A stretch of DNA of 64,000 bases, taken from Polyangiaceae bacterium. Lineage in GTDB: Bacteria > Myxococcota_A > Polyangia > Polyangiales > Polyangiaceae. The position numbers and the translations under genes were made by a program. The notes beneath the pieces are model-generated. The model made no database searches. It was not told the origin of the DNA and worked only from the letters and a program-made list of their open reading frames with translations. The stretch lies in the NCBI GenBank assembly GCA_016929495.1, contig JAFGIS010000297.1, positions 1 through 64,000 on the forward strand, read 5' to 3'. Position 1 is the stretch's first letter. Every line of letters starts with the position of its first letter. Positions 15,550 through 41,658 of the stretch are shown here, piece by piece.

Positions 15550-15580
15550 CGGACAACGGACACAAGGAGCCAAGCGACCC

Positions 15581-23083: not shown

Positions 23084-23899
23084 CTACGCCCTGCTCCCGC
23101 GCAGCATGACACGCGTCCCGTAGCGCACGTCGGTGACGCCACTGACCGTGCGAGCCTTCTCGACCACGATTTCGACGAGACGCGGATCGATCAGCTTGCC
23201 CTCGACCTCCACGACACCCGCGGCCGCCCGGACCTCCACGTCGGCCAGCGCCGTGTCGGTGCCGGCGGCGAGCACCGCGCGCACACGACTCGCGAGGTGC
23301 AGATCGGCGAAGGCGCGCAGACTCTCCGCATCGGGCTGGAACTGCGGATGGCTGATGGTGGCCACGACTGCGGAACAGGCCGCCTCGGTGTCGAGATGCT
23401 CGAGGTTGAGTACGAGGTCGTAGAGGCTTGAGTCGTTCCAATCAACGCCGTACAAAAAACGCGTCCACCGCTCACGTTCCCGGTCGACGCGGGCGATGTA
23501 GGCCGCGGCGTCATCGCTGGTGAGCCCCTTGCGGCTCTGCACCTGGTCGATGCGATAGCCAAGCGGGGCGATCAGCCGCACCCGCAGGACGTGGCGCACA
23601 CCGCGGAGCAGAAGGTGACCCGCATGGCCGTGATAGACGATCTTGTTCCCCGCCGCCTGGTCGCAAAGCGTCGCCTGAACGAACGCGAGGTACAGACGAC
23701 GACCATGCAGGAAGCGGTCCCACAGACCAGGCCCCGTTCCCATGGCCTCAGCCAGCTCGGCTTCCGATACCCCGTACTGAACGGCAGCCTCAGCCAGAAC
23801 CTCCCGGCTCAGCACCCGGTAGCCAAGTTGTTCTCCGAGGCGAACCGCGAGCGCTTCGCCTCCGCTGAATGTTCCGCGAGATATCGTGATGATGGCCAT
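23084..23899 (-). CDS. Cytidylate-kinase-like protein with C-terminal BON domain (paralog 1)
   Basis: This 271-residue protein opens MAIITISRGTFSGGEALA, a P-loop start of the cytidylate kinase-like (Cytidylate_kin2) family. VYHGHAGHLLLRGVRHVLRV near residue 90 and arginine-rich segments (RVDRERERWTRFLYGVDW) resemble its lid region. The last 70 residues read like a BON domain (VEVEGKLIDPRLVEIVVEKA). The ATG at 23899 follows GGAGAG; upstream codons do not resemble the family. A paralog lies at 33610-34404 within the TSUP/PEPS cluster. The true substrate is unknown: family members are often far from CMP metabolism. The gene is divergent from a histidine kinase. Confidence 0.75.
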   Translation of the reverse strand: MAIITISRGTFSGGEALAVRLGEQLGYRVLSREVLAEAAVQYGVSEAELAEAMGTGPGLWDRFLHGRRLYLAFVQATLCDQAAGNKIVYHGHAGHLLLRGVRHVLRVRLIAPLGYRIDQVQSRKGLTSDDAAAYIARVDRERERWTRFLYGVDWNDSSLYDLVLNLEHLDTEAACSAVVATISHPQFQPDAESLRAFADLHLASRVRAVLAAGTDTALADVEVRAAAGVVEVEGKLIDPRLVEIVVEKARTVSGVTDVRYGTRVMLRGSRA

Positions 23900-24021
23900 C
23901 TGTCTCTCCACGCCGTCGCTGCGCCGCAGCGCTCCGCTTGACGTTTCACTGCCGACCGGACAGCATAGTCTCAAAGTCCCGCACGCGCACGCGCGAATCT
24001 CCGCCCAGATCCACAGCGCAA

Positions 24022-25536
24022 ATGGCAATGACACGCGAGCCCACGGCGCCGATTCCGGACCCGCTAGACCCGGCACAAGCCGCGGAGTACGCTCTCGTGC
24101 ACCGCCCGGGTTTCACCATCCGCAAGAAGATTGCCCTCAGCTTCCTTGCGTGCTTCGTCGTGATCGGTGCCGTCACTCTGGCCTCATCTGTCATTCTGCG
24201 TCGCATCGAGCAACGGTTGCACTTCCTCGAGCTTGCCGACATCTACACCAGCAACATCCAGCAGGCGAGGCGATACGAGAAGAACTACTTCCTGTACGGC
24301 ACAGACCTTGCTAGCGCGCTCGAACACGTTGCGGACGCTCGACGCACGCTCGCCGGCGCGCACGCCCATTTCGACCAGGTAGTAGGGGCCAAGACGCACA
24401 GGGAGATGGTGCGTCACATCGAACGCTACGAGCATCTCGTGACTCGCTTGCGCCAGGGGGACATCGTTGCAGCACAGAGCAAGCAGGCTGCCGAGGTCGA
24501 GCTCAGACAACACGGCGGACAGATGGTCGAGGTCGCCTTGCACGTGGCGGAGGCCGAACGCCAGCGAGTGCGTAGGCTCTTGCAGCTCTCGAAGAACATG
24601 CCGATCGCAGCACTCGTATTGCTGCTGGCTCTGATTCTCTACGTCGTTCATTTCCTGACTCGACAGATACTAGGTCCACTCGGACGCATGGTGGACTACG
24701 CGCGTCGCATCGCAGACGGCGACTTCAGCCCGATCTTCCCGGCGCGCCGCTATCGCGACGAATTCACGGGGCTCGTGCTGGCCATGAACCGAATGATGCA
24801 TGAACTGCATCGTCGACAGGAGATGCTCGCCGACGCGCAGAAGTTGCGCGCCATCGGTACGTTGACGGCCGGCGTCGCGCACGAGCTCAACAACCCTCTC
24901 AACAATATCTCACTCACTGTGGAGTCGCTGCTGGAGGACTACGAAACGCTGCGTGACGAGGAGCGTCTGAGCATGGCCCGGGACCTGCTCGCGCAGACCG
25001 AGCGCGCCCAAGGTGTGGTTCGCAGCTTGCTCGACTTTTCGCGCCAGCGCCAGCCGCGAATGGAGGCGCTGGACATCGGCGCCCTGCTCTCTCAAACGAA
25101 CAAGCTCCTCGCCAATCAAGTCAAGCTCGCGCACACTCGCCTCGAGTTCTCCGTAGCCGAAGGCCTGCCACCGGTGCGAGGCGACGGCCAGCAGCTCGCG
25201 CAGGTGTTCGTGAATCTGTACCTCAACGCGATCGAGGCAATGGGGCGGGATGGTCACCTGCAGGTCGTCGCACGCTCGCAGGACGACCGCCCCGGGTTCG
25301 TAAGGGTCGATATTCGTGACTCAGGCCGTGGCATTCCCGACAACGCCTTGCGGTACATCTTTGACCCGTTTTTTACGACGAAAGGCGCCAAGGGCACGGG
25401 CCTCGGATTGTCCGTGAGCTATGGCATCGTGGCCAAGCACGAGGGCACCATCGAGGTCGAGAGCAAGGTCGGCGAGGGGACGACGTTCTCGGTGCTGCTG
25501 CCCGTCGCACGCGTGGAGGTCGCGCCAAAGCACTGA
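24022..25536 (+). CDS. Membrane sensor histidine kinase
   Basis: This kinase of about 504 residues has a transmembrane helix near residues 32-55 and a helical periplasmic sensor (about 56-195) with RRYEKNYFLYGTD, typical of four-helix-bundle sensors. A second helix lies at about 197-215, then HAMP, then a HisKA box (GVAHELNNPLNNIS, near 292). The HATPase domain has NLYLNAIEAM and GAKGTGLGLSVSYGIV. No receiver is attached; the receiver protein at 28233-28631 could be a partner. The first ATG at 24022 is chosen, though the frame opens earlier. It is divergent from the kinase-like/BON gene and its 3' end abuts a family 2 repeat. Confidence 0.85.
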   Translation: MAMTREPTAPIPDPLDPAQAAEYALVHRPGFTIRKKIALSFLACFVVIGAVTLASSVILRRIEQRLHFLELADIYTSNIQQARRYEKNYFLYGTDLASALEHVADARRTLAGAHAHFDQVVGAKTHREMVRHIERYEHLVTRLRQGDIVAAQSKQAAEVELRQHGGQMVEVALHVAEAERQRVRRLLQLSKNMPIAALVLLLALILYVVHFLTRQILGPLGRMVDYARRIADGDFSPIFPARRYRDEFTGLVLAMNRMMHELHRRQEMLADAQKLRAIGTLTAGVAHELNNPLNNISLTVESLLEDYETLRDEERLSMARDLLAQTERAQGVVRSLLDFSRQRQPRMEALDIGALLSQTNKLLANQVKLAHTRLEFSVAEGLPPVRGDGQQLAQVFVNLYLNAIEAMGRDGHLQVVARSQDDRPGFVRVDIRDSGRGIPDNALRYIFDPFFTTKGAKGTGLGLSVSYGIVAKHEGTIEVESKVGEGTTFSVLLPVARVEVAPKH

Positions 25537-25545: not shown

Positions 25546-25690
25546 CTAGTGCCGCGTTTCGATTGAGTTGAGGGGCCGGAAGCGACGCCCCCAACTGGGT
25601 GAGGACGTCGCTTCCGGCCCCAAACCCAGTCGTCTGATCCGCGGCACCTCTTCATTGTTGGCCATCGTTTCAAATGAAACGATGCACTAG
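25546..25690. repeat. CTAG-bounded repeat, family 2, copy 1
   Basis: This 145-bp element runs from CTAGTGCCGCGTTTC to GATGCACTAG. It contains a long hairpin (GGGGCCGGAAGCG with CGCTTCCGGCCCC) and a palindrome (CATCGTTTCA, two bases, TGAAACGATG). An inverted copy lies at 31626-31769. The right CTAG provides the TAG stop of the minus-strand gene ending at 25687. It sits between convergent genes, so it can work as a terminator in both directions. Confidence 0.8.
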
Positions 25691-28206
25691 CCGAAGCGAC
25701 CGTAGTCCTGAGAAAGGAAACTGCCCACGAGAGAACGCACGGTCTGCGTGTCGCCCAGGAGCATGTCAAGCTGACGAGCACATGCCATGAGCAAACCGAG
25801 CTGTGTGAGGGCCGCTTCGCACGCGTGGCGCGGCGCGCCCCGCAACCACGCGTTTAGCAGGTCGGCGCGGCGGTCGGTTGCGAAACCGAGAGCCCCAAGG
25901 ACCTGGGCCAGGAATAGCGTACGCAGGTCTCGGCGATCGGAGCTTGCACCGCCCCCCTGAAAGCGGAAGCTCACGTAGTTGTTGTCGGCTGGCTCACCAA
26001 CCACCGCGTCGAGCATGGCGTAGTGGTATGCGAGGCGAGCGTTGAGGTTGAGGTAGTCGCGCGCCACGACCAGGTAGTTGCGGTCTCCAAGAGAGCGCAG
26101 GTCACGTCCGTCCTGCAGTATCGTGTTCTGCAGGACCGAGACGAAGCCGGCGGCGCTCACCTCGCGGCGCCCAGCCCACCTGACCGCTGGGTCCGCAATG
26201 CCCTGCCAGAGGGCCCGGAAGGGAACACAGACGATAGACTCGGGCGCGACGGCCCCGCCCGGTTCGGCGTCTTCTGCGAGACCCCCGCCGAGATCGAGCA
26301 CGTCGAGCTCGATGGGGATCGCTGTCTTCAGGTGTCGAGCAGCGCGCCTTCCCGACCGCGCGTGCCGGTCGCCCAAACGAAACATCGCCGCGAGAGCGCG
26401 TTCATGAGCCAGTCGCAGCAGATCGTGAATGGAAGCACAGTGCTTCGCAGTGAAGTTGGCTGCGTTCGGATCGACGAGATCCAAGCGCAGAATGAGGTCG
26501 TGTACGAAACTCGCGCCCTGGGCGCAGCGGCCCCTTTCTCTGCGTCGGGTTCGGCCCCGCAATTCCGGCCACGGGATCCCTGCGTACAGCTCACCACGGG
26601 TCCCATCAACCCCAACGGCCTCTCCATCACTCAGCGCGCTGAGTGCATCCGCCGCGTCGCAGATCGCCGGAACGCCTGCTTGTCGCATGAGTGAAGCAGC
26701 GTGGCTCTGCGGACTGCCGGTGACTGCAACGACCGCTGCAACGTGCCCCAGCACTCGCGCGATTTCCGGCGTAGCCTGGCGGACGACCAGCACGGCACCC
26801 TCGGGCACCGAGTCCAACTGGCTCGCTTCCGAAGCGCAGCAGACGGTTCCCACGGCTCGACCCGGCGATACGGGTCGACCACGCAACCTCACCGTGTACC
26901 GTGGTGTGGCGCGACTACGACTGCGCGTCGGCGCAACGGGAAGCGGACGTGCCTGTAGCACCCACAGCCGTCCCCGTTCGTCCTGTGCCCACTCGATGTC
27001 CTGAGGCTCTCCGAAATGACGTTCGATCGCAAGCCCGAGCGCTGCCAGTCCTCCAATCGACGAGTCTGCGATCGAGGGTTCCATCCGTCGATGTTCCGGC
27101 AGCGTCCTGGTGGAGGTCCCGGGGATGCCGGGCCCACTCACCACCGCCGAGTCCTTTCGAGCGAGATGGCGCTCGCGGATCTGACCCACCGGCTCTCGAG
27201 CCACGATGAAGAGGTCCGCGGCTGCCGTGCCAGCAACGACCTCGACGCCCAGACCGAAGGTACTGCTGATCCACATCGTCGTGGCGCCAGGCTGTTGTGG
27301 GTCTCTCGTGTAGAGTACGCCCGCGCAGCGCGCCGCGACCATGGGAAGGAAAAGCACCGCCATCGGCGTCTCGACCTCGGCCAATCCAGCGCCCTGCCGA
27401 TACGCCAGTGCGCGATCGGAGAAGCGGCTGACGATGACAGCACGATAGGCGTCTGCAAGGCCATCACGGGGAACTCCGAGAAAGCTGTCGAATTGCCCTG
27501 CGAACGAAAGCCGCCCGTCCTCCCCCACGCCGCTGGAGCGCACTGCCCAGTACGGACAGCCTGTGAACTGGGACTCGGCCGCGGCAATGCCTTCCACGAC
27601 CTCGACGGGCAGGGCCGCACCTTCTATCAGGCGTCGCAACTCGCCCGCGCGTTCGGCCAGAACGGTTTCGCCACCTTGTGCCGTTGCCAGCAGGGCGTGC
27701 ATGTGAGCGGAAAGGCCAATCGCTTGCGCAAGACGGCGGTAGGCTGCCGTAGTAACCACGAAGCCCGATGGCACGTGCGAGGGAATGACGCGCCTGAGCT
27801 CCGCCAGATTGGCGGCTTTGCCGCCGGAGCGCTCACGGCGCAGTGCCTCCGGTTCGTCCAGTAGGCAAGTGAACCGCTCGGAAGGACGCCCTTCTTCTTC
27901 CTCGAGCCGCTTGCGTACGAGCGTCTCGATGCGTTGGTGAGCTTCGAACAGGTCTTTGGCGTGCCCGCCAGTCAAATCATTCAAATCCTGCACGAGGTCC
28001 AGACTCGTCGCGAGGATCCGTTGCACGTTTTCACGCAGGTGTGGATCGGCTAGTGTTTCGTAACGTAGGCCCGCCTCGAGCTCCGCGAGGAGGTTGAGAA
28101 GCTCACTGTTGCGGCCCAGCAGGCGACGGAAGCTCGCGTACTTCTGTCGGAAGGAGAGCGTGCCATCGGCGTCTGCCCTTCTCGCGCGCTTCAGCCAGCG
28201 AAACAT
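25687..28206 (-). CDS. PEP-synthase-like protein A: ATP-grasp + phosphohistidine + uncharacterised C-terminal domain
   Basis: This 839-residue protein starts with a helical region (1-115). A PPDK/PEP-synthase N-terminal ATP-grasp domain follows (about 117-420): SGGKAANLAELRRV, AVRSSGVGEDGRLSFAGQF, and PQDIEWAQDERGRLWVLQAR. The swivelling domain at about 445-545 keeps the phosphorylatable histidine (GSPQSHAASLMRQAGVPA). The PEP/pyruvate TIM barrel is absent. Instead residues 560-839 form a domain shared with paralogs B and C (IHDLLRLAHE, LDVLDLGGGL, LAYHYAMLD, FRFQGGG). It may transfer phosphate from ATP via histidine to an unknown acceptor. It lies downstream of a receiver gene; the stop codon is in a repeat. 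Confidence 0.8.
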   Translation of the reverse strand: MFRWLKRARRADADGTLSFRQKYASFRRLLGRNSELLNLLAELEAGLRYETLADPHLRENVQRILATSLDLVQDLNDLTGGHAKDLFEAHQRIETLVRKRLEEEEGRPSERFTCLLDEPEALRRERSGGKAANLAELRRVIPSHVPSGFVVTTAAYRRLAQAIGLSAHMHALLATAQGGETVLAERAGELRRLIEGAALPVEVVEGIAAAESQFTGCPYWAVRSSGVGEDGRLSFAGQFDSFLGVPRDGLADAYRAVIVSRFSDRALAYRQGAGLAEVETPMAVLFLPMVAARCAGVLYTRDPQQPGATTMWISSTFGLGVEVVAGTAAADLFIVAREPVGQIRERHLARKDSAVVSGPGIPGTSTRTLPEHRRMEPSIADSSIGGLAALGLAIERHFGEPQDIEWAQDERGRLWVLQARPLPVAPTRSRSRATPRYTVRLRGRPVSPGRAVGTVCCASEASQLDSVPEGAVLVVRQATPEIARVLGHVAAVVAVTGSPQSHAASLMRQAGVPAICDAADALSALSDGEAVGVDGTRGELYAGIPWPELRGRTRRRERGRCAQGASFVHDLILRLDLVDPNAANFTAKHCASIHDLLRLAHERALAAMFRLGDRHARSGRRAARHLKTAIPIELDVLDLGGGLAEDAEPGGAVAPESIVCVPFRALWQGIADPAVRWAGRREVSAAGFVSVLQNTILQDGRDLRSLGDRNYLVVARDYLNLNARLAYHYAMLDAVVGEPADNNYVSFRFQGGGASSDRRDLRTLFLAQVLGALGFATDRRADLLNAWLRGAPRHACEAALTQLGLLMACARQLDMLLGDTQTVRSLVGSFLSQDYGRFG

Positions 28207-28232
28207 CACGCGTGCCGCCTTCGCCCGGACGC

Positions 28233-28631
28233 CTATCGATTCGTTTGCGACTCGCTCTCGCGTTGGAGCGTCTCGGCGGCTCGCAGAATGGTACGCCGCA
28301 GGTCATCGAGCTTGAACGGTTTGGCGATGAAGTCGAACGCGCCCATGGTGAGCGCCTCGCGGGCGAGATCGACGGTCGCAAAACCAGTGATCATGATGAC
28401 CAGGGTTCCAGGTGATCGGGCACGGACGTGACGCAACACATCCATCCCATCGACGCCCTCCATGCGAATGTCCGTCACGACGATGTCGAAGCCGACTTCA
28501 TCGATCAGCCGGACCGCGTCGGCTCCAGTTGTGGCAACGCGCACTTCGTAACCAGACTTGGCCAGCGCCGGCTTGAGTCGATTGCCCACGATGGGTTCAT
28601 CGTCGAGGACCAGAATGCGGAGCTTCTTCAC
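28233..28631 (-). CDS. Single-domain response regulator
   Basis: This stand-alone receiver domain of 132 residues has no output domain. The acidic pair DDE lies near residue 10, the phosphoacceptor aspartate is in VVTDIRMEGVDG near 53, the threonine is in MITGFA, and the lysine is in AKPFKLDD near 105. It sits between the PEP-synthase-like genes A and B in the same direction, with gaps of about 21-26 bases, so all three are probably co-transcribed. It could be controlled by the kinases at 24022-25536 or 20187-21695 and may act by protein contact, for instance with its PEPS-like neighbours. That is an inference from context. Confidence 0.9.
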   Translation of the reverse strand: MKKLRILVLDDEPIVGNRLKPALAKSGYEVRVATTGADAVRLIDEVGFDIVVTDIRMEGVDGMDVLRHVRARSPGTLVIMITGFATVDLAREALTMGAFDFIAKPFKLDDLRRTILRAAETLQRESESQTNR

Positions 28632-28652
28632 CGTTTGCCTCCTGTTCGCCGG

Positions 28653-31181
28653 TCAGTCGAGCGCGTATTCGCCCCGCAGGAATGCGTCCACGTAGCGCGC
28701 TACCTCTTCTTCGCTGTGCATGACCGCGTCGATTTGCCTCGTGAAACCTATCAGACGACCAATGCTTTCCAGACGAACCACCGTCTCGGGACGGGGCAGC
28801 TTGCGCAATCGGCCCGTGACGAGGTCCGCGTGCTGCCGTGCGGAGAAGTCGAGGCGCTCCAGGATCTCGCGTACCATGGTGGCGCGCCGGACGCGACGTT
28901 CTCGATCCGATGCTCCCCCCACGAAGCGGAAGTACACGTGATTCGCGTCGCGGTCGTCGGAGAGGTAGGCATCGACCATGGTGTAGTGGTAGCCGAGATT
29001 AAGGCTCAGATTGGCGTACGCATCGGAAACGACCGCCAGATTGCGCCCGCCACGCTGGCTTGCGCCGGGGGACATCGCGCTCGCCATGAACGTGCTCAGG
29101 TCCACGCCCACCGGGCGTGTGTCCCAGACTCCGGGCGTGGTCAGCCCAGCCCACATCGCACGCATGGGCGCGGAACGAATCGCCTCGGGCTTGATGGACG
29201 TGCCCGGGCGTTCGGCCTGAGCGCTGCCGTCGATGCCGCCACCGATGTCGATCACGCGAAGATTCAGCGGGAGCTCCGAGTCGAGCCGCCGCGCCGACTC
29301 GGCGCCGAAGACACGACCGGAGCTGTGGAGACCGATCAGCTCCTCGACTGCCTTCTCGTGGGCGAATCGCACGACATCGTGAAGTGTGCGGCAACGCTCG
29401 GCACGGAAGTCCTCCGACGCCGGGTCCAACAGCTGGAGTGGCGTCACCCTTCGCAGCAGTCTTCTGAGCAAGCGGTATTCGACGGCGTCCTCGAATCCGG
29501 TCTCTTCCACGAGCTGGTGCTGGAGCAGCTCCCCGACACGGCCCGCGTAGACGATTCCGTCGTCTGCGTCGACAGTGATTTCCTGTCCGACCGCCACGCA
29601 CGTCGTTGCGTTGCCGCAGTCGACGATGGTGGGCACACGGAACTCTCGTGCGAGAGCGGCCATATGACCGGTTGGTGCACCGATATCCGTGAGTATGGCC
29701 GAAACGCGTGGCATGACGCGTACGAAGCGTGGGGATGCACGTCGGGCAACGAGAATTGCCCCAGGCGGCACGGCGTCAAGGTCAGTGTCCGCACCCGCGA
29801 CATACACTTTGCCGCTCGCGACGCCTCGACACGCGACGTGGCCACACGCGCGCATGATGACCTGGTAGTGCTGGAGTAGCGCTGGGAGGTCCCTGGGTGG
29901 CCCGCCCACGGCGGCGAGTTTGAGGCGGCGGGTCTGCAGGACGTAGAGAGTGCCATCTGCGTCGCGGGCCCATTCGATTTCCTGCGGCTGCTTGAAGTAC
30001 CGCTCGATGCGTGAGCCTATCCGAGCGAGGCGTGCGGCCTCCGCGTCCGTCAACTCGCGCACCCCCTGGCTGTCGACTTGCGTGGCCACGACTTCGAGGC
30101 CCCCATCGGGACGACCGACTAGCCGATCCTCTGCCGACGCGGGGCCGTAGTGCAGCACGGCATGGGGTGCTTCACGCGACAGTTCGAAGCTGGAGAGGCT
30201 CTGCCCGCCGGCGAGCGCGCGGCTGGCCAGGCCTCGTGTGGCGCCCAAGAGCATCCGTCCGCTGTCGGGACGGTTCGGATCGACCGTGTAGAGCACGCCG
30301 GCTGCTGACGCATCGACCATGCGCATGCAGGCAACCGCCATCAGGCCGAACGCTGGTAGGCCACGAGCTCGACGGTACTCGAGCGCGCCTCTCTCATAGA
30401 GGCTAGCGAGCACCTCGCGGTACGCGTCGAGCACCTTCTCCGGCGTGACTTGAAGGACAGAGCGATATTGACCTGCGAAGGACTGCTCGTCGTCTTCTCC
30501 CAGGGCACTCGAACGAAGGGCAACACAGAGCGGACGCTCGGTGGTCTTCAGACCGGACAGTGCGCGGGCGATCGCCCGACGCACGTCCCTCGGTATCTTC
30601 GCTGAGCGCAGTCGCTGGCAGATTCCATCGAAGGCGCTCAGATCTCCTCGGTTGAGGCGTTCGATGGCCGTCTCGACCGGCTGCACCAGACCATTCTCCT
30701 CGACGACACGCAAGTAGGCATGTGTCGAGATGGCGAAGCCATCCGGGATGGGGACCTGCAGTCGCGTCATCACCTCTCCAAGGTGCGCGCTTTTCCCGCC
30801 GACGAGATTGACGCGGCTTTCGTCTATCTGATCGAACGGTAGACACACCTCGCTGCGAGGCACGACCGGCCGCCCCGAAAGGTCACCCTGCGCTTCGGCG
30901 CGGAGCTGATCTACGAGCGCGTAGAGATTGGCATGCTTCTGGTCAGCGATGCTATTCAGGTCGTAGACGATTTTGTCGGCAAGACCGAAGAGCTCATCGA
31001 CTACCGATACAACGTACGTGCGATCAAAGACATACTCGCCCCCTTGTTTCTCCGCAGCATCCGTGAAGAGCTGCAGCACGCGCGTGTTGTTGTCAATGAG
31101 CTGGCGGAACCGCGCGAACACCAGCTTGAACGGCACCCTGGCGTGTTGGCCCACGCCGAACAGCTTGCTCAGCCACGCCAT
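28653..31181 (-). CDS. PEP-synthase-like protein B
   Basis: This 842-residue paralog of proteins A and C has the same four-part plan. A helical N-terminus is followed by an ATP-grasp domain from about 125 (NLVGGKSAHLGEVMTRLQVP, ALRSSALGEDDEQSFAGQY, PQEIEWARDADGTLYVLQTR). The phosphohistidine segment near residue 530 is GAPTGHMAALAREFRVPTIV. The C-terminal domain of about 270 residues holds LHDVVRFAHEKA, LRVIDIGGGI, LGYHYTMVD and FRFVGG. The PEP-binding barrel is again lacking. It is more divergent from A and C in the C-terminal domain. The ATG at 31181 starts a typical N-terminus. It is the first gene of a possible B-regulator-A operon. Confidence 0.8.
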   Translation of the reverse strand: MAWLSKLFGVGQHARVPFKLVFARFRQLIDNNTRVLQLFTDAAEKQGGEYVFDRTYVVSVVDELFGLADKIVYDLNSIADQKHANLYALVDQLRAEAQGDLSGRPVVPRSEVCLPFDQIDESRVNLVGGKSAHLGEVMTRLQVPIPDGFAISTHAYLRVVEENGLVQPVETAIERLNRGDLSAFDGICQRLRSAKIPRDVRRAIARALSGLKTTERPLCVALRSSALGEDDEQSFAGQYRSVLQVTPEKVLDAYREVLASLYERGALEYRRARGLPAFGLMAVACMRMVDASAAGVLYTVDPNRPDSGRMLLGATRGLASRALAGGQSLSSFELSREAPHAVLHYGPASAEDRLVGRPDGGLEVVATQVDSQGVRELTDAEAARLARIGSRIERYFKQPQEIEWARDADGTLYVLQTRRLKLAAVGGPPRDLPALLQHYQVIMRACGHVACRGVASGKVYVAGADTDLDAVPPGAILVARRASPRFVRVMPRVSAILTDIGAPTGHMAALAREFRVPTIVDCGNATTCVAVGQEITVDADDGIVYAGRVGELLQHQLVEETGFEDAVEYRLLRRLLRRVTPLQLLDPASEDFRAERCRTLHDVVRFAHEKAVEELIGLHSSGRVFGAESARRLDSELPLNLRVIDIGGGIDGSAQAERPGTSIKPEAIRSAPMRAMWAGLTTPGVWDTRPVGVDLSTFMASAMSPGASQRGGRNLAVVSDAYANLSLNLGYHYTMVDAYLSDDRDANHVYFRFVGGASDRERRVRRATMVREILERLDFSARQHADLVTGRLRKLPRPETVVRLESIGRLIGFTRQIDAVMHSEEEVARYVDAFLRGEYALD

Positions 31182-31625
31182 GGGCTATCCTGCCGATCGG
31201 CTCTGCCGGCGCTGCAGCCTGGAGAGAGTTGGACGACTTGTTTCATCGCGGCGGTTCCCCTCTCCTTCGGACACTTCGTCCTGGCTGGATGAGCGGAGCT
31301 GCGAAGGAGTTGGCTGTCTCGACACGACTCAGGGGACCCTGGTCACCTGTCCTTGGTTGGGTGCGAGCGGAGGGCACACCATCCGCGTCTATCCTTGGAT
31401 CCTAATCTACTACCAACGCGGAGCGCCGTCCCGGCACAGGAGCAGGACTGCCCGGAAGCTCGGCGTGGTCCGTCGTCCATCAGCAATGGTCGGGGCAGCT
31501 CGGCGTCGGCCCCTACCGCTTGGGCCACCCGGCCCCACCCGGCCCCGGAGTGACGTGTCTCGCGGCTCTGGTCAGCCACTGGGTCTGGCGTTCCTGTCGC
31601 TCGCCGCTGCAAACGACGCGAGTAG
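31182..31625. other. Gene-free stretch upstream of PEPS-like B
   Basis: This stretch of about 440 bases probably holds the promoter for the minus-strand B-regulator-A operon. I see no site with the GTGCAT-N9-ATGCAC spacing and no convincing ORF. Confidence 0.4.
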
Positions 31626-31769
31626 CTAGTGCATCGTTTCAATTGAAACGATGCCCAAAAACGAGGGGTGCCGCGGGTCAGACGAGTGGGTTTGGGGCCG
31701 GAAGCGGCGCCCCCACCCAGCTGGAGGCGGCGCTTCCGGCCCCTCAAATCAATCGAAACGCGGCACTAG
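31626..31769. repeat. CTAG-bounded repeat, family 2, copy 2 (inverted relative to copy 1)
   Basis: This 144-bp element runs from CTAGTGCATCGTTTC to GAAACGCGGCACTAG. It is nearly identical to the reverse complement of 25546-25690, with the same CATCGTTTCA/TGAAACGATG palindrome and GGGGCCGGAAGCG hairpin. The right CTAG supplies the TAG stop of the minus-strand gene at 31766. The two copies bracket proteins A, B and the receiver. Confidence 0.8.
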
Positions 31770-32515
31770 TGCCCACCGCCCTTCTTGAACACCAGCCCCG
31801 TCAAGAACCCAACGCCAAGTGCCACCACAACACACAGGATCCCGTACAGGGAGCCCCTCCGGAACGCCAGGTCCGAGGTCCAGGCAGGAAGGCCCACCAA
31901 TCTGGCGTGCAAGGCCACCTGCTCGCGTCCGACGACAGTGCGTCCCCGGGCCTGGACCACGCTGACAGTGTAGTCACCAGGCGCCGCGGATTTAGGCCAA
32001 GGAAGGCTCGCCTCGAATGTGGCCCGGCCGTCAGTTCGGTCCACGCGCACTCCACCGCGGAAGCTGCCGAACAGGCCCTGCGCCTGCTTGAGCCGCACGT
32101 ACTCGCGCTGGATGAGATCACGACTCGCGCCCGCGCCTTCGATTTCGGCGCGGCGCACGACAGCGTCGAGGTCGAGCGAGTTGGCGTCGATGATACTTCG
32201 GTCGGTTTCTACGGGTGCCGGCGAGCTCGTCGCGATGAGGCACAGCTTGGGCACTCCGGAGACGCTCAGACTGCCGACGTTCGCCCAGAGCGGCCCGATG
32301 CGTCCCTTGCGGTTGAATTTTTCTGCGATACGCGCACCCGTCACAATGACAAAGATGTGCGCACCGGGTTCGGCGCTTCCGCGTACGTGGACACGCCCTC
32401 CGCGAAACGCAGCGTCCATGAGGATGGGGTTGGGATCTACGCGCACCGCCGCGACCGCGACTGGCTCAGCCAGCAGCAGCGCGAGCGCGAAAGTGAGTAG
32501 AACACGAGCGTACAT
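31766..32515 (-). CDS. Exported Alph_Pro_TM (TIGR02186-like) protein next to a TSUP transporter
   Basis: This 249-residue protein has a signal peptide (MYARVLLTFALALLLAEPV) and an extracytoplasmic domain. A C-terminal transmembrane helix (LYGILCVVVALGVGFLTGLV) is followed by a short basic tail. The beta-rich part has RVDPNPILMDAAFRGGRVHV and IFVIVTGARIAEKFNRKGR, as in the Alph_Pro_TM family. To my knowledge genes of this family are often beside TauE/SafE transporters, which fits here, since a TSUP gene ends 10 bases upstream of its start. It may bind or deliver the transported sulfur compound. The start at 32515 is chosen for the signal peptide. Function is not established. Confidence 0.75.
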   Translation of the reverse strand: MYARVLLTFALALLLAEPVAVAAVRVDPNPILMDAAFRGGRVHVRGSAEPGAHIFVIVTGARIAEKFNRKGRIGPLWANVGSLSVSGVPKLCLIATSSPAPVETDRSIIDANSLDLDAVVRRAEIEGAGASRDLIQREYVRLKQAQGLFGSFRGGVRVDRTDGRATFEASLPWPKSAAPGDYTVSVVQARGRTVVGREQVALHARLVGLPAWTSDLAFRRGSLYGILCVVVALGVGFLTGLVFKKGGGH

Positions 32516-32525
32516 GGCGACTCCC

Positions 32526-33446
32526 TCAGTGCCCACCCTTGGCGTATGACAACAGGAGCGAGGGTGTAGCGACCAGCCCGTATGCCATCTTGACACACAC
32601 GACCAGCACGATGATCGACAGAATGATCCTGAGCTGTTCGCCGCGAAGGCGTTTCGCCACACGAGCACCCAGCTGCGCGCCGATCGTCGAACCGAGCGCC
32701 AGTATCATGGCGAGCATCAGGTCAACGGTGTGGTTCACCGAGGCCTGCATGAACGTCACGCCGCTCGCCGTGAAGAGGATCTGGAAAAGGTCCGTTCCAA
32801 CCGCGACGTGCATCGGCATGCGCAGCAGGTAGACCATCGCGGGGATCATGATGAACCCGCCGCCAACACCCATGATGGCGGCCAGAATCCCGACGAGAGC
32901 GCACAAAGCGATCGGCACGAAAATCGAATGCTGGATGCCCGACTTGGCGAAGTTGGTCTGAAGAGGAAGCCGCAACAGCAGTCGGGCCACTGTGGATGGC
33001 TTGGGTCGGGCGGCCAGGTCCGAGCGCTTGCCCCGCAGAGCGCCCAAGCTCTCCGTGAACATGTAGCCACCGATGAGCCCCAGCACCACGACATACGTGG
33101 CCATGATCAGGAAGTCAGCGTTCCCGACCTGACGCAAGGCCTTGATTATCTGGACTCCGACCGCGCCGCCTCCAATTCCGCCGACGAGCATCAGGCCACC
33201 CAGCTTGTAGTCGACGTTGCCCATTCGGGCATGCGCCAGGGTGCCCGACGCAGAAGCCGCCGCGATCTGGCACGAGTCCGTGGCGGCAGCCACCGTCGGA
33301 GGGATCCCGACCATCATCAACAGCGGCGTCATCAAGAAGCCACCGCCAACGCCGAACATGCCCGACAGGAATCCGACGAGACCGCCGAGACCCAGGGGAA
33401 TCAACAGGTTGACGCTAGTGGCGGCGATGGGAAGGAACAGATACAT
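32526..33446 (-). CDS. TSUP (TauE/SafE) family sulfur-anion transporter
   Basis: This 306-residue membrane protein has both TSUP repeat signatures: GMFGVGGGFLMTPLLMM near residue 28 and AAIMGVGGGFIMIPAMVY near 195. The segments AAATDSCQIAAASASG and VAVGTDLFQILFTASG hold the polar residues that line the path in this family. About eight helices are visible. The ATG at 33446 has GGGAGG upstream. It is followed at 10 bases by the Alph_Pro_TM gene, so these two form a pair. The family moves sulfite, sulfate, thiosulfate or organosulfonates; the substrate here cannot be read from sequence. Confidence 0.88.
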   Translation of the reverse strand: MYLFLPIAATSVNLLIPLGLGGLVGFLSGMFGVGGGFLMTPLLMMVGIPPTVAAATDSCQIAAASASGTLAHARMGNVDYKLGGLMLVGGIGGGAVGVQIIKALRQVGNADFLIMATYVVVLGLIGGYMFTESLGALRGKRSDLAARPKPSTVARLLLRLPLQTNFAKSGIQHSIFVPIALCALVGILAAIMGVGGGFIMIPAMVYLLRMPMHVAVGTDLFQILFTASGVTFMQASVNHTVDLMLAMILALGSTIGAQLGARVAKRLRGEQLRIILSIIVLVVCVKMAYGLVATPSLLLSYAKGGH

Positions 33447-33609
33447 GGTTGGCCTCCCGTGCCAGTTCGATGACGGAACCCCAGCCGGATCGCCAGCGTC
33501 CACGTCGGTTTTGTGATTCGGTGGCGAAGAGCGCACGCCGGCCGGTATGTGTCCGATCCGACGAGCTCTGCGCGTGTCGCCAGCAGAAAGCGAGCTGGGG
33601 TGCTTGTTT

Positions 33610-34404
33610 TCACCCTGCCTGGCCCTCCCAATGCACCTCGACGACCTGCGGAACGGTCCTGGCAATGTCGAGTGCTGTCCGCATCAGCTCGTCGTCGCGA
33701 AGGTTCCCGTGGATTGACAGGCGACCGTCGTCCGCGACGACCTCGAGCTCCGCATGGGCAGTGGTGGCATGGCGTGCTAGTGCGCCGCGAACCCTGCAGG
33801 CCAGTGCGAGGTCGCGCAGCGCCTTGCGCGACACAGCGGTCGGCTGAAACTCGGGAAGAGCCGCCGTGGCGCGGATGGCGGCGCATGCGCCGCGAACCCC
33901 CATCGCATCGAGGTTGACCACGAGATCGTAGAGCAAGGGCGAGTTCCAGTCGATGCCGTACAGAAACCGGGTCCAGCGAGCGCGTTCCTCGTCCACGCGG
34001 CGCACATGGGCTTCGGCAGACTCACGACTACAGCGCAGGCGGCGCATGGCTGCACTCACGCGGAAAGGCGTGGGTGCGATCAGACGAACGCGCAGCACAT
34101 GGCTAATGTCGCGCAGCAGCAGGTGACCTGCGTGACCGTGGTACACGACGTCGTCCTGCTCTGCGGCGTCCAAGAGCGCGCCCTGTATGTACACCAAGTA
34201 GAGACGGCGCTCGTGCCCGAGCCGTTCCCACAGTCCCGGCGCGCGCTCGAGCGCTTCTGCGAGCCGTTGCTCGGCAACGCCGTACTGCTCGGCAGCTGCC
34301 GCCAAGATCTCTCGACTGACGAGGCGGTAGCCAAGCTGTTCGGCGACGCACTCGGCGACAACGGTCCCTCCGCTGAACGAGCCCCTCGAAATAGTGATGA
34401 TCAT
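33610..34404 (-). CDS. Cytidylate-kinase-like protein with C-terminal BON-like domain (paralog 2)
   Basis: This 264-residue paralog of the protein at 23084-23899 starts MIITISRGSFSGGTVVAE. It shares VYHGHAGHLLLRDISHVLRV, the segment RWTRFLYGIDWNSPLLYDLV, and FQPTAVSRKALRDLALA. The end resembles a BON domain (LSIHGNLRDDELMRTALDIA). Conservation of the whole architecture in two copies beside sulfur-anion transporters suggests a defined role, perhaps nucleotide-dependent sensing or phosphorylation. CMP kinase activity seems unlikely, since the usual CMP-binding segments are not evident. The start at 34404 follows a short untranslated stretch; codons upstream lack family similarity. Confidence 0.75.
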   Translation of the reverse strand: MIITISRGSFSGGTVVAECVAEQLGYRLVSREILAAAAEQYGVAEQRLAEALERAPGLWERLGHERRLYLVYIQGALLDAAEQDDVVYHGHAGHLLLRDISHVLRVRLIAPTPFRVSAAMRRLRCSRESAEAHVRRVDEERARWTRFLYGIDWNSPLLYDLVVNLDAMGVRGACAAIRATAALPEFQPTAVSRKALRDLALACRVRGALARHATTAHAELEVVADDGRLSIHGNLRDDELMRTALDIARTVPQVVEVHWEGQAG

Positions 34405-34615
34405 GGACAACCCCCTTGGGATACTGGCGCAATCTTGAGTGGGGTCGCCGAAGCCTGCCGCGATGCCGGGATGGGCGGCGAGCGTCGACGGCCTCCACGC
34501 GGCGCAGACCATGGGACACGGGCGGGGTCGAGCCCGAAACAGGATGCGCCTTCTCTCGCTCTCGGGAGAACGGCCGCCCAGCCGCTAGATGCGCACGAAA
34601 ACACGGCGTCGAGGC

Positions 34616-34804
34616 TCAATGTCCGCGGGACGACAGCTTGATTCCGAACACGCGCTCGATGCCCGTCAGCATCAGGCCGACCACGGCGCCGAACAGCATC
34701 GGGCCGAGGAAGCAGGCAAGTAGGTAGGCCCCTTGGGCCTGGAATCCGGCCTTGTCGGGATTCGCGTCTCGGGCGATCGCGTCCAGCCATTGCAGAAACG
34801 GCAT
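34616..34804 (-). CDS. Small single-helix membrane protein coupled to a TSUP gene
   Basis: This 62-residue protein has an N-terminal amphipathic part (MPFLQWLDAIARDANPDKAG) and one strong transmembrane helix (YLLACFLGPMLFGAVVGLML), ending in a short polar tail. Its start is only two bases after the TSUP stop at 34806, and the GGAGGAGGG ribosome site lies within the end of the TSUP gene, so translation is probably coupled. It could be an accessory subunit of that transporter. I do not recognise a family. Confidence 0.65.
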   Translation of the reverse strand: MPFLQWLDAIARDANPDKAGFQAQGAYLLACFLGPMLFGAVVGLMLTGIERVFGIKLSSRGH

Positions 34805-34805
34805 A

Positions 34806-35735
34806 CTACCCTCCTCCGTGCAGGACTTTCATCACGAGCTTCGCTGCCACCATGAGCACGGCGAAGTAGGCAATGTAGGCGAAGACGTTGCGCAGGCGCG
34901 GGCCACCGAGACGCCGCGTGAGCGACGCCCCGATCTGCGAGCCCAGCGTGGACCCAATGAGCAAGCCGAGAACCAGGACGAGGTTCACGTTCCCCTTCAT
35001 GCCGTGCGTGAAGGCACCGTACGCGGAGGAGAACATGATCTCGAACAAGTCCGTGCCGACGGCGACCGCCGTCGGACACCCGATGATGTAGATGAGCGCG
35101 GGCATGCGGATGAATCCGCCTCCAACGCCGAGCAGGCCGGCCAGGACCCCGGTCGCGAACCCGACACCCAGGATCACCCACAACGAGATGGAGGCGATGC
35201 CGGAGCGCGGCAGTGAGATCATGGGCGGCAGGTGGAGCGCCGACAAACGCTCGACGAACCAGTTCTTCTCGATCGTGTCCGAGCCGCCCGCGCGCACACT
35301 CGCCAGAGCCTTGCGCGACTCCCGCAGCACGACGGTGCCGATCCAGACGAGCAAGACCATGTAGATGACGCTCATCACGAGCGTCATGACGGGGATCTGT
35401 GCGTGGCCCAGCGTGACATGCCCCGCCCTCTTGAGGACCTCGAGCCCGGTAGCACCCACCTCGACCCCGCCCGCCGTGCCGGCGCACATCAGGAGGCCGA
35501 GCCGGTAGTCGATGTTGCCGATGCGCCCATGACGAATGGTCGCCGCGGTAGACATGCCCGCCATTTGTGCAAGGTCCGAACCGACCGCGACGTTGTACGG
35601 AACTCCGAACAGGATGTTCAGCAGTGGCGTCAACAGAAACCCGCCACCGACTCCGAACAGCCCAGCCATGAATCCGACGACGAGCCCCAGGATCGCGAAG
35701 CTGGCCAGGGCATTGAGAATGGTCATTCCAAACAT
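34806..35735 (-). CDS. TSUP (TauE/SafE) family sulfur-anion transporter
   Basis: This 309-residue membrane protein has the two TSUP signatures: GLFGVGGGFLLTPLLNILF near residue 26 and GLLGVGGGFIRMPALIYI near 198. Both halves carry the conserved VAVGSDLAQMAG and VAVGTDLFEIMFSS segments. About eight hydrophobic helices are seen. The start overlaps the stop of PEPS-like C in a TGATG arrangement, and the small membrane gene follows by 2 bases. This tight coupling links a transporter to a PEP-synthase-like enzyme, a key argument that the two act together. Substrate unknown; a sulfur oxyanion is likely from family and locus. Confidence 0.88.
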   Translation of the reverse strand: MFGMTILNALASFAILGLVVGFMAGLFGVGGGFLLTPLLNILFGVPYNVAVGSDLAQMAGMSTAATIRHGRIGNIDYRLGLLMCAGTAGGVEVGATGLEVLKRAGHVTLGHAQIPVMTLVMSVIYMVLLVWIGTVVLRESRKALASVRAGGSDTIEKNWFVERLSALHLPPMISLPRSGIASISLWVILGVGFATGVLAGLLGVGGGFIRMPALIYIIGCPTAVAVGTDLFEIMFSSAYGAFTHGMKGNVNLVLVLGLLIGSTLGSQIGASLTRRLGGPRLRNVFAYIAYFAVLMVAAKLVMKVLHGGG

Positions 35736-38305
35736 CAGAGGTCCCTCCTGGGCTTCGCTTCACCGCCGTCAGCGTCAGCGGACTGCGAATCCTCTTCCAC
35801 GTGAAAGCGGTAGTTACCGGCGAGGAACGCCGCAACATACCATTTCATACTGGCTTCGTCAGCCATGAACATGTCAAGCTGGCGTGAACACGCCATCAAG
35901 CGCCCCAGCATGTCGAGGCGGTCTTCGGTCACCTCGCGCGGATAGCGCCGGAGCCAAGCATTGACGAGGTCCTCCCGCACATCGACGCAGAAGCCGAAGT
36001 GCTGCAGGCACTCCTGAAGGAACCGGGCCCGCAAGTTCTTGCGGAACGCTTCGGTGCCTCCGCCCTTGAATCGGAAGTCGATGAAGTTCGAGCTCTGGCT
36101 GTCGTCCACGCACGAGTCGACCATGGCATAGTGGTAGGCAAGGCGTGAGTTGAAGTTCATGTAGTTGTCGCCCACCGCGACGTAGCTGCGAGCGCCGAGC
36201 TCACGCGCCTCATTGGCGCGGTCCGTGATGGCGCGCGCCACGACCGAGGCAAAACCCGATAGGTTCACGTAGTCCCGCCCGGCCCAGGATACGTCTGGGT
36301 GGGTCATGCCACGCCACAGAGCCCGGAACGGCAGCGAACGAATAGCTTCTGGGCGTATTCTCGGCGCGGGCTGCGCCTCGGGTTCGAGTCCTCCACCCAG
36401 ATCGAGGACGTGCAAGTCGATGGGCACATTGCACTCGAGCACACGGGTGCTTGAATTCCGCCCCTCGGACTCCTCGTCACCGAGCGAGAATACGGTCTGT
36501 ATTGCCTTTTCGTGCGCGAAACGCACGACGTCGTGTACGGAACGGCAGCTCGAAGCCCGAAAGCTCCACGCGCTTGGGTCGAGTAGCTTGAGGGAAGTGA
36601 CGCGCTCGGCAAGCGGGTGAGGTGAACGCGACGCGCGCTGACGCGCCCGGTCCTTGGCATCCGCCGCGAACAGCAGACCCGGGTAGACGCGTCTGGCAGC
36701 TGCATCCAAGCTCGCGGAGTCTGCGCCCGCAAGCAAGCGAGTCGCTTCACCGGCATCGAATAGCGCAGGTACACGGTACTCTCGTACGAGAGCAGCGGAG
36801 TGGCCGGCCGGGTTGCCGAAGTCGACAATCAGGCCGCCGATGCGTCGCAGGAACTTGACGCATTCGGGGCACGTGTGTCGCAGCACCACGATCGCTCCTT
36901 CGGAAACCCGCTCGAGAGTCCTGGCACTCTCCGCGATGTGAACGGGCCCCGAGGCGCGCCCCGGATAGATGGTGACGCCGCCTGTGAGCAAGGGAGCGAC
37001 CTTGGGTGCGCGCATGATACGTGGGCGGTCGGCGCCCAGCCGGAGCGGGCGCGCCTGCAGGACCCAAATAGTCCCTGCGTCGTCGACGGCCCATTCGATG
37101 TCCTGTGGCGCACCGCACAGCTTCTCGAGACGCAAGGCCAGGGCGGCCAGGGCCGCGAGTTCCCCATCGTCGACGCTAGCCTGGTTTGCCAGGTCGGCAG
37201 GCGCGGCTTCCTCGCGCACGCCGCCGCCAGGTAGCATTGCGCTACGCACGCCCTTGTACTTGACATGGCGGGCCAATACGTCGTGACGGCGCGTCCGGGA
37301 GACGAGGAACCGGTCGCCCGTCGAAGCACCGGTGAAGCCGACACCCCACGACGCGGTGACCAGCAAGGCGTCGGAGCGCGCGTCCGCCGGGTCGCGGGTG
37401 TACAGGACACCTGAGCTGCGCGCCTGAACCATGTGTAGAAACAGTACGGCCATTGGGCAGTCCGCTTCCGCCACGCCTGAGCTCACGCGGTACGCCATGG
37501 CGCGCGCGTTGAACCGGCTGGCCCACACCGCCCGACAGGCCTCGGCGAGTTCGTTCTGTGGAACATGAATGCGACTGTCGAACTGCCCCGCGAAGGTCAG
37601 GGCGCTGTCCTCCCCGACCGCGCTGGAGCGCACTGCGAAGGTGTCGTGAGTCCGACACATCAGACGGCGGAGCTCCGCGCGAATCGCCACGTCGATCGGC
37701 TCAGGCACCGGAGTCGCGAAAACCTGCTCGCGCAAGCGGTGCGACGCGCGAGACAGACTGGACAGGTCGTCGACGTCGACGTGAGGCAGCTCGGATCGGA
37801 GGCATCCGTACAGATTGGCCTCACGCGCGAACTGGTTGTAGGCGCGTGTCGACAGCACGAATCCGTCCGGTACCGGGAGACCGTTGGCGCGCAGCAACGC
37901 GAGCTGCGTGGCCTTGTTGCCCACCAGAGGCGCATGCTCCTTGAAGATGTCGGCGAGCGGGTAGGAAATGGCGCCCTGCTCCACGCGCTGGACACTGGCA
38001 AGTTGGCTAGCCACCTCGTTCTTGATAGCGCCGAGCACCGTGAGCAACTCGCCGTATCGGCCCTCGGAGAGTCGCTCGAGAGCGTCGACCAACGCCTCGG
38101 TACGTTCGAGCAGCAGATCGACGCACTCGCGAATATGCGGGTCGCCCGCCGGAACGAGCAGCAGGTCGTTCTCCAGCGCCGTGATCAGCTCCAGCGCCGT
38201 GGCGTTGTTGCCGAGCAGCTCCTGCAGAGCGCGAAACCTGCGAGCCAGCCTGTCCATCGGGGACTCCGTGGACCGTGCCGGAGGGGGCGGGCGTCTTCCA
38301 AGCAC
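35735..38305 (-). CDS. PEP-synthase-like protein C
   Basis: This 856-residue paralog of A and B starts at a GTG at 38305 with GGGGAGGA 8 bases upstream; an in-frame ATG lies at 38257. Order: helical N-terminus with DPHIRECVDLLLERTEAL; ATP-grasp domain (PLVGNKATQLALLRANGLP, AVRSSAVGEDSALTFAGQF, PQDIEWAVDDAGTIWVLQAR); swivel domain with histidine (NPAGHSAALVREYRVPALF, near 520). The unnamed C-terminal domain (about 575-830) has VHDVVRFAHEKA, LHVLDLGGGL, LAYHYAMVD and FRFKGGG. The usual PEP/pyruvate barrel is missing. Both ends overlap TSUP genes (TAGTG upstream, TGATG downstream), so it is translationally coupled to two transporters. Confidence 0.82.
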   Translation of the reverse strand: MLGRRPPPPARSTESPMDRLARRFRALQELLGNNATALELITALENDLLLVPAGDPHIRECVDLLLERTEALVDALERLSEGRYGELLTVLGAIKNEVASQLASVQRVEQGAISYPLADIFKEHAPLVGNKATQLALLRANGLPVPDGFVLSTRAYNQFAREANLYGCLRSELPHVDVDDLSSLSRASHRLREQVFATPVPEPIDVAIRAELRRLMCRTHDTFAVRSSAVGEDSALTFAGQFDSRIHVPQNELAEACRAVWASRFNARAMAYRVSSGVAEADCPMAVLFLHMVQARSSGVLYTRDPADARSDALLVTASWGVGFTGASTGDRFLVSRTRRHDVLARHVKYKGVRSAMLPGGGVREEAAPADLANQASVDDGELAALAALALRLEKLCGAPQDIEWAVDDAGTIWVLQARPLRLGADRPRIMRAPKVAPLLTGGVTIYPGRASGPVHIAESARTLERVSEGAIVVLRHTCPECVKFLRRIGGLIVDFGNPAGHSAALVREYRVPALFDAGEATRLLAGADSASLDAAARRVYPGLLFAADAKDRARQRASRSPHPLAERVTSLKLLDPSAWSFRASSCRSVHDVVRFAHEKAIQTVFSLGDEESEGRNSSTRVLECNVPIDLHVLDLGGGLEPEAQPAPRIRPEAIRSLPFRALWRGMTHPDVSWAGRDYVNLSGFASVVARAITDRANEARELGARSYVAVGDNYMNFNSRLAYHYAMVDSCVDDSQSSNFIDFRFKGGGTEAFRKNLRARFLQECLQHFGFCVDVREDLVNAWLRRYPREVTEDRLDMLGRLMACSRQLDMFMADEASMKWYVAAFLAGNYRFHVEEDSQSADADGGEAKPRRDL

Positions 38306-39366
38306 TAGTCTTCCTCCCCGCTCATGTCATGGCCGAGCGCATGAGCGCTGCGGGTCCACAGGGCCCGGGCGACCACGCCGCCAACCAGCGCGACGACGAG
38401 TGCGGCCGCGCCGAACAATGCGACCAGGCTGGCAACGTGCAGCACGGTCCGGACACCCGGAGGTAGCGTGGACCAGCCAGCGTCGGCGCTGAGCATCGGC
38501 AGTGCCAGAAGTCGGCCGAAACCTACGAGGCCGAGTACGAAGCAGCTGGCGATACGGATGGGAGTCTCGCGCATCAGCCGCGCGCCGACCATTCCGAGAT
38601 GGAAACCCGGAATCGAGCCCAGGTAGAGCAGCAACGTTGCGTGCAGGTTTACGTGACCGCGCACGGCGAACGTCACGGCCCCGTAGGCACCGATGACGAG
38701 TACCAACGACAGATCAGCGGCGATCGCGATGGAGGCTGGCATGCCCAGCAGGTAGATCAGCGCGGGCACCGTGAGGAATCCGCCCAGAGCGATCGTGCCG
38801 CCGAACCAGCCAGCGACGAACCCGATAGCCAGCACGAGCCACAACGAGACTACCACGTTCGAAGCAGGGAACCGTATGACAGGCGGCATTCGCAACGGCC
38901 TGAGCCGTCGCATGACGCCCTTGACGGATAGAGGTCGCGCAATGGGCGCGTGGCGCCGGCTGCGCCACAGGTCCATGAGGAGCATGTGCGTTACCGCGCC
39001 AAGGACGACGATGAGGACGCCGCTGACGTGCATGTCTGCGACCGCGCGGCCGTAGCGCTCGCGGAGCAGCGCGGTGACACCACGGCCCAGTTCAACACCG
39101 GCGACGCTGGGAAGCGAAAGCAGAACGAGCAGCTTGGGATCAACGCGACGCAGCGCGTTCCACCTGCGCTTGCTCGTCGCCATGCGGCCCAGCCGGTGAA
39201 GCAGGTTCGACCCGACCGCCGTCAACCCGTCAACGCCGAGCCCCATCAACCCCGGGACCATTACAAAGGCACCCCCTCCTCCAACGAACCCGCCGAGCAT
39301 TCCGCCCACCAGCCCGAGCGCGATCAGGCCTACGACGTTGACAGTCTCGACCGGGACAAACTGCAT
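38305..39366 (-). CDS. TSUP-like transporter with C-terminal extension
   Basis: This 353-residue membrane protein has a TSUP-like first repeat (GMLGGFVGGGGAFVMVPGL) and a second near residue 190 (GWFGGTIALGGFLTVPALI). It differs from the neighbouring TSUP proteins in using GGGG and ALGG instead of GVGGG, and in a longer, basic central loop and C-terminal tail ending in SAHALGHDMSGEED. Two more hydrophobic segments near residues 260-345 lie beyond the usual TSUP end. The start overlaps the stop of the small membrane gene at 39366 (TGATG) and the stop overlaps PEPS-like C. It belongs to a tightly packed operon starting at 40017. Confidence 0.78.
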   Translation of the reverse strand: MQFVPVETVNVVGLIALGLVGGMLGGFVGGGGAFVMVPGLMGLGVDGLTAVGSNLLHRLGRMATSKRRWNALRRVDPKLLVLLSLPSVAGVELGRGVTALLRERYGRAVADMHVSGVLIVVLGAVTHMLLMDLWRSRRHAPIARPLSVKGVMRRLRPLRMPPVIRFPASNVVVSLWLVLAIGFVAGWFGGTIALGGFLTVPALIYLLGMPASIAIAADLSLVLVIGAYGAVTFAVRGHVNLHATLLLYLGSIPGFHLGMVGARLMRETPIRIASCFVLGLVGFGRLLALPMLSADAGWSTLPPGVRTVLHVASLVALFGAAALVVALVGGVVARALWTRSAHALGHDMSGEED

Positions 39367-39602
39367 CACCTGAATCCGCAGAGTTGGAGCAGCGCCTGAA
39401 CGACGCGGCGGCAGCAATAGGCAGCCAACGCAGCCCACAGCACGACGGCACCGACCTCGAAGCCAACGTTTCTGGTCAGGACATCGACCAGACGCGCCGG
39501 GGGTCGGAACGCCGTGTAGTAGACGCCGAGTGCGGCGGGCACGAAGAACGCCAAGCTCAGAATCTGGGGTTCCCCGCGTCGGCCCATGCGCACCTTATCC
39601 AT
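39366..39602 (-). CDS. Small two-helix membrane protein
   Basis: This 78-residue protein has two hydrophobic segments (ILSLAFFVPAALGVYYTAF and FEVGAVVLWAALAAYC) with a charged start (MDKVRMGRRGEPQ). It overlaps the upstream gene by 8 bases and the TSUP-like gene by one base (TGATG). I do not recognise the family. Because of the overlaps it is surely co-translated and could be a transporter accessory subunit. Confidence 0.65.
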   Translation of the reverse strand: MDKVRMGRRGEPQILSLAFFVPAALGVYYTAFRPPARLVDVLTRNVGFEVGAVVLWAALAAYCCRRVVQALLQLCGFR

Positions 39603-41618: not shown

Positions 41619-41658
41619 GGTGCCTCCTCGTTTGCTGTGCCAAGTGGCAGGCAAGCTG

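Follow-up and report, generated by a model that had tools for sequence, protein, structure and literature searches.

A dikinase-like protein family with an undescribed C-terminal domain in sulfur-respiring bacteria

PEP synthase (PEPS), PPDK, rifampin phosphotransferase (RPH), and HpeHI combine an ATP-grasp domain with a swivel phosphohistidine domain and phosphorylate small molecules, and RPH, HpeHI, CreHI, and PpsAB show the same front end joined to acceptor domains of different kinds (PMC4844700, PMC12167813). In RPH, the lysine K22 is required, and its replacement by alanine abolishes activity (PMC4844700). A PEPS-like gene is also part of a Desulfovibrio nitrate cluster, where insertions in the TauE, CHP, response regulator, or PEPS-like gene (DVU0251, DVU0250, DVU0247, and DVU0246, respectively) cause nitrate resistance: growth is no longer inhibited by 100 mM nitrate, whereas nitrite still inhibits it (PMC4001038). 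The authors of that study suggested a leaky thiosulfate transporter, and they cited unpublished data in which G20 mutants grew slightly worse on thiosulfate (PMC4001038). Which TSUP transporters take up sulfate, thiosulfate, and sulfite in sulfate respirers, and how this uptake is controlled, is an open question (PMC5840216).

The window that we analyzed (the whole stretch of 64,000 nucleotides) encodes three proteins, A, B, and C, which represent a distinct dikinase-like phosphotransfer family of sulfur-respiring bacteria. Open reading frames were confirmed where the first-pass annotation had placed them, all on the minus strand: A at 25687-28206 (ORF 25687-28209, with the ATG at 28206), B at 28653-31181, and C at 35735-38305. 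Each protein consists of an N-terminal helical domain, an ATP-grasp domain (PF01326), a swivel phosphohistidine domain (PF00391), and a new C-terminal domain of approximately 265 residues, which occupies 25690-26490 in A and 35801-36601 in C, both on the minus strand. The RSSxxGED...FAGQ motif and the swivel histidine sequences SHAAS (A), GHMAA (B), and GHSAA (C) were found as that annotation had described them, and the catalytic residues of both domains are present in the family. The N-terminal domain of approximately 100 amino acids, which the annotation had left out, matches no named domain. By Pfam, the only matches in the three proteins were PPDK_N (E values of 1e-64 to 1e-70) and the PEP-utilizers mobile domain (3e-11 to 2e-19), with nothing past residue 545 or so; the PEP/pyruvate barrel (PF02896), whose loss had been claimed, was not found. 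NCBIfam PEP-synthase models covered A, B, and C only to about residue 560 and scored far under their cut-offs, and the RPH equivalog NF041857 (cut-off 999) gave 180 to 210 bits, with matches confined to the ATP-grasp part and one other short stretch. The source genome has two additional copies, D and E, on a different contig.

The family shares the ATP-grasp and swivel phosphohistidine domains with RPH and the small-molecule dikinases HpeHI, CreHI, and PpsAB, whose conversion of ATP to AMP, Pi, and a phosphorylated acceptor is for this family a prediction. In contrast to RPH, the swivel domain is central rather than C-terminal and the rifampin-binding domain is missing, while an unrelated C-terminal domain, an extra N-terminal helical domain, and a context of two-component and TSUP genes are present. 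The order of ATP-grasp domain and swivel histidine and the conserved ATP-site residues are those of PEP synthase and PPDK; however, the new domain stands where these enzymes carry the PEP/pyruvate barrel. The swivel domain also resembles that of Enzyme I and EI-Ntr of the phosphotransferase system (Z scores of 12 to 15 to EI structures), but the EI barrel is absent and the phosphate would derive from ATP rather than from PEP, and the parallel in transport regulation is one of analogy. Neither HPr nor EIIA was noticed among the family neighbors. Relative to known dikinases, the new features are the domain on the acceptor side, the N-terminal domain, the pairs with pseudo-enzymes, and the tie to sulfate respiration.

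In the full-length model of C (pLDDT 89), the swivel histidine is residue 486 of 840, ahead of the new domain, and residues 94 to 528 matched RPH (5hv3; Z score of 40.7, 3.1 Å over 415 residues), PEP synthase (2ols; Z score of 37.5), and also PPDK. Beyond its N-terminal helices, the front part of the protein is therefore an ordinary dikinase front end. The C-terminal domain modeled alone (pLDDT 88, pTM 0.81) is an alpha/beta sandwich, with an order of helices and strands unlike that of a TIM barrel. It starts with a long helix carrying HDxxRxxHE, followed by a strand pair that ends in DxGGG and by two helices, and it closes with a four-stranded stretch bearing YHY and FRFxGG and then a helix-strand-strand-helix-helix arrangement. 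None of the structural comparisons of this model was convincing: the best Foldseek match in the PDB had an E value of 0.019 at a TM score of 0.25, the best in BFVD (phage G proteins) had 0.006 at 0.27, and the highest Z score with VIA was 7.3, which is within the range of chance arrangements. The top VIA rows were generic ferredoxin-like designs, and rows for PcyA and coproporphyrinogen oxidase appeared at Z scores of 5.5 to 6.5. A resemblance to arginine kinase was considered and not supported; the same was true of GHKL, an idea raised by DxGGG, for which there was no Pfam HATPase_c match and no counterpart among the Foldseek and VIA matches listed.

Sequence searches led to the same result, and the claim of an undescribed domain in place of the barrel, for which the first-pass annotation had proposed a profile search and structure predictions as checks, was borne out by both. 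The C-terminal 265 residues or so had no match in Pfam or NCBIfam, a PHROGs search returned nothing meaningful, and a profile of 83 members reached an E value of 0.1 at best against PDB sequences; Pfam applied to these 83 members produced scattered chance matches only, and a plasmid collection contained no match to the family. In the literature, no description of the domain was found, and only the nitrate-cluster paper turned up (PMC4001038). The five paralogs of the source genome share 41 invariant C-terminal columns, and among 98 homologs bearing an ATP-grasp domain, conservation was nearly complete for H23 (97), D24 (98), R27 (95), H30 (98), H157 (98), R191 (98), and D243 (97). Of the motifs previously called invariant, DxGGG (aspartate in 87/98) and FRFxGG are strongly conserved but not invariant. 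With homologs in at least eight phyla, a chance origin of the family is excluded.

When 84,980 species genomes were scanned with one strict peptide pattern, at least 55 loci were found, a number that this single pattern makes a lower bound, in Myxococcota, Acidobacteriota, Desulfobacterota, Zixibacteria, Latescibacterota, Armatimonadota, Planctomycetota, Poribacteria, and others. The family tracks AprA across three phyla, each represented by an even sample of genomes. By Fisher's test, uncorrected for shared ancestry and counting genomes rather than independent gains, the P values were 7 × 10^-11 for Myxococcota (284 genomes; C-terminal domain in 7, AprA above the cut-off in 7, both in 6), 4 × 10^-42 for Desulfobacterota (247 genomes; 89, 98, and 83, respectively; odds ratio of 132), and 6 × 10^-17 for Acidobacteriota (297 genomes; 14, 20, and 13). 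In 7 of the 13 Acidobacteriota genomes with both, the domain gene and aprA are on one contig, about 6 to 16 kb apart. AprA-positive genomes lacking the family amounted to 15/98 in Desulfobacterota and 7/20 in Acidobacteriota.

The family genes of the window are packed among two-component and transporter genes. A and B are separated by the gene for a single-domain response regulator of 132 amino acids (28233-28631, minus strand), spaced 24 to 27 bp from its neighbors, and a membrane histidine kinase with HAMP, HisKA, and HATPase_c domains (23938-25536, plus strand) is divergent from A. Two TSUP (TauE) transporter genes flank C directly, one downstream (34806-35735) and one upstream (38305-39438), and two more are found at 32526-33665 and 22139-23020, all on the minus strand; the four lie within 18 kb. 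An Alph_Pro_TM/TIGR02186-like membrane protein, a recurrent TSUP partner, is encoded at 31766-32668, and proteins with Cytidylate_kin2 and BON domains are encoded twice, at 23084-24076 (weak BON; the start is uncertain, and the 5' end overlaps the histidine kinase ORF) and at 33610-34512, all on the minus strand. ATP sulfurylase (Sat; 40392-41666, minus strand) adjoins the cluster, and AprA (6221-8098, plus strand) is on the same contig. Positions 4665-16660 and 40392-41976 of the window form a sulfate-respiration island, inside which A, B, and C are encoded, on one contig of this 9.6-Mb Myxococcota-like genome, with aprBA, a qmo-like flavoprotein, an FlpD-containing protein, sat, dsrC, and a dsrB-type sulfite reductase subunit that has a likely dsrA ORF ahead of it.

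Neighbors were analyzed at 51 loci, with crude gene calling. The densities of histidine kinase, response regulator, and TSUP genes dropped 5- to 10-fold from within 2 kb to 6 to 10 kb from the family gene, and Alph_Pro_TM, Cytidylate_kin2-BON, and universal-stress genes were likewise concentrated near family genes and thinned out with distance. Nineteen response regulator genes were at most 300 bp from a family gene, all on the same strand, and 17 of them had single-domain size. A TSUP gene was detected within 4 kb in 16 of the 51 loci; thus, many copies are not beside a transporter. Cytidylate_kin2-BON proteins are recurrent partners as well, within 4 kb in 9/51 loci. Relatives of B (L059-L061, L065, and L086) are near TSUP-Alph_Pro_TM pairs, and the Alph_Pro_TM gene is directly beside the TSUP gene in the window, L061, and L065; its product is a possible TSUP partner subunit.

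In a Desulfovibrionaceae genome (G060), the genes of locus L094 are, by Pfam and in this order, TauE, a 224-amino-acid CHP, PhnD, a histidine kinase (cache, PAS), a response regulator of 120 amino acids, the family member, and a dual-specificity phosphatase. This cluster has the gene order and composition of DVU0251-DVU0245 and Dde_0597-0605, including the 360-bp response regulator gene (PMC4001038). Loci L095-L097 (G369, G516, and G434) carry PhnD, histidine kinase, response regulator, family member, and phosphatase without a TauE call, with a different order in L096 and a different orientation in L097. The window cluster differs from DVU0251-0245 in having Cytidylate_kin2-BON and Alph_Pro_TM proteins, three family members, and four TSUP genes, while no PhnD or phosphatase gene was recognized in it. 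By synteny, DVU0246 is a putative family member; its annotated length of 2235 bp (approximately 744 amino acids) is about 100 amino acids short of the homologs, and the insertions in the cluster may have had polar effects. The family ties an unexplained Desulfovibrio nitrate-resistance locus, which bears on the control of oil-field souring, to a conserved module in Myxococcota, Acidobacteriota, Desulfobacterota, and other phyla, and a test can start from defined residues and partners in an existing genetic system.

Taken together, the two-component genes, the TSUP transporters, the co-occurrence with AprA, and the nitrate phenotype point to the regulation of anion uptake. The explanation that we tentatively prefer is that a two-component system, made up of a membrane histidine kinase and a single-domain response regulator, has the dikinase-like complex as its output, and that this complex licenses sulfur-oxyanion uptake by a linked TSUP (TauE) transporter. 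Insertions that disrupt the transporter, the receiver, or the PEPS-like gene have one phenotype in common, which is the main reason to propose that the transporter needs both the receiver and the PEPS-like protein to work. Judging from homology and conserved residues, the ATP-grasp domain would charge the swivel histidine, converting ATP to AMP, Pi, and phosphohistidine. The swivel would then turn to the new C-terminal domain, which replaces the PEP/pyruvate or rifampin site, for either transfer or conformational control. Operon structure and the Desulfovibrio genetics suggest that the receiver may control the complex and that the complex may affect TSUP uptake. Pairing between active and inactive family members is probably the task of the N-terminal helical bundle, and the dual-specificity phosphatase of some clusters would reverse the licensing. 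The full version of this proposal, an undescribed phosphohistidine relay fueled by ATP instead of PEP, with active and pseudo-enzyme subunits, two-component wiring, and a new acceptor or sensor domain that gates sulfur-oxyanion entry in sulfate respirers of several phyla, is doubtful as a whole.

Genomes contain 1 to 10 family copies. In a tree of 92 C-terminal domains, A and C shared a clade with members from Acidobacteriota, Latescibacterota, Armatimonadota, and Desulfobacterota, while B, D, and E belonged elsewhere in the tree, to groups of which several span more than one phylum. These shared clades rule out that A, B, and C arose by recent duplication and show that the copies are old or laterally shared. 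Several degenerate paralogs, with dead or missing ATP-grasp and swivel domains, hold most or all C-terminal motif residues. In a Desulfovibrio subfamily (L077_6, L078_4, L084_4, and L090_5), the ATP-grasp Lys, Glu, and Gln are lost and the swivel histidine is changed to arginine, and L083_8 has lost the Lys, Gln, and His; all five retain the HDxxRxxHE, FHF, and FRF/FQL-GG regions. Given the effect of the Lys-to-Ala change in RPH, the Desulfovibrio paralogs lacking lysine and histidine are very likely inactive. At the G438 locus (L078), the genes for a pseudo-enzyme, a histidine kinase, a response regulator, and an active member are lined up one after the other; at L090, an active member occupies the equivalent position. 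This pairing suggests that active and inactive members form heteromers. The earlier suggestion that the true acceptor or donor of the phosphate binds to the C-terminal domain is not established. Paralogs with dead ATP-grasp and swivel sites keep the conserved residues of this domain, which argues for a role independent of phosphotransfer in cis, either ligand sensing or acceptance in trans.

Somewhat unlikely, in our estimate, is a metabolic small-molecule dikinase comparable to RPH and HpeHI, in which the C-terminal domain would bind a sulfur-pathway or central metabolite, the enzyme would phosphorylate it, and a phosphatase or later enzyme would use the product. Small-molecule phosphorylation by the relatives PEPS, PPDK, RPH, and HpeHI (PMC4844700, PMC12167813) is in line with such an enzyme, as are the high density of conserved His, Asp, Arg, Tyr, and Asn residues in the domain, which is typical for an active site, and the dual-specificity phosphatase clustered with the family in four Desulfobacterota loci. 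However, up to 10 ancient paralogs per genome, the tight two-component linkage, and the retention of the C-terminal residues in inactive paralogs fit regulation better than a single step of metabolism.

It is less probable still that the C-terminal domain senses a sulfur oxyanion or metal while the phosphotransfer half sets the conformation and the phosphate stays on the swivel histidine. The five pseudo-enzymes named above, with their intact C-terminal motif regions, and proteins consisting of the N- and C-terminal domains only (L030, L039, and L052) are consistent with a sensor. Against it, the catalytic lysine and the swivel histidine are each retained in 92 of the 98 full-length members, and H23 or H30 is changed in the N-plus-C-only proteins, three cases that give a small hint that these residues may belong to the phosphotransfer step. 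An ordinary PEP synthase or PPDK with a diverged barrel is extremely improbable, and a barrel is rejected for the C-terminal region, since, although database models call the first 560 residues PEP synthase, there was neither PF02896 nor a PDB match at E values of ≤10 to the PEPS/PPDK barrel, and the predicted fold (pLDDT 88) is not (beta/alpha)8. The labels "PEP synthase" and "PEP/pyruvate-binding protein" on many genes in such genomes are very likely misannotations.

Two recurrent arrangements were observed outside the window. In the distant taxa of L060, L061, and L065 (in the last at around 6.3 to 12.9 kb), a conserved cassette of TSUP, Alph_Pro_TM, family member, USP, and USP genes is present, with histidine kinase and response regulator genes close by. 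Additionally, the N-terminal domain of about 100 residues recurs in shorter proteins of 400 to 430 amino acids without ATP-grasp (L017_6, at 6581-7864 of L017, and L041_2, at 2278-3489 of L041), where it is joined to an unrecognized remainder and each gene adjoins a full-length family member.
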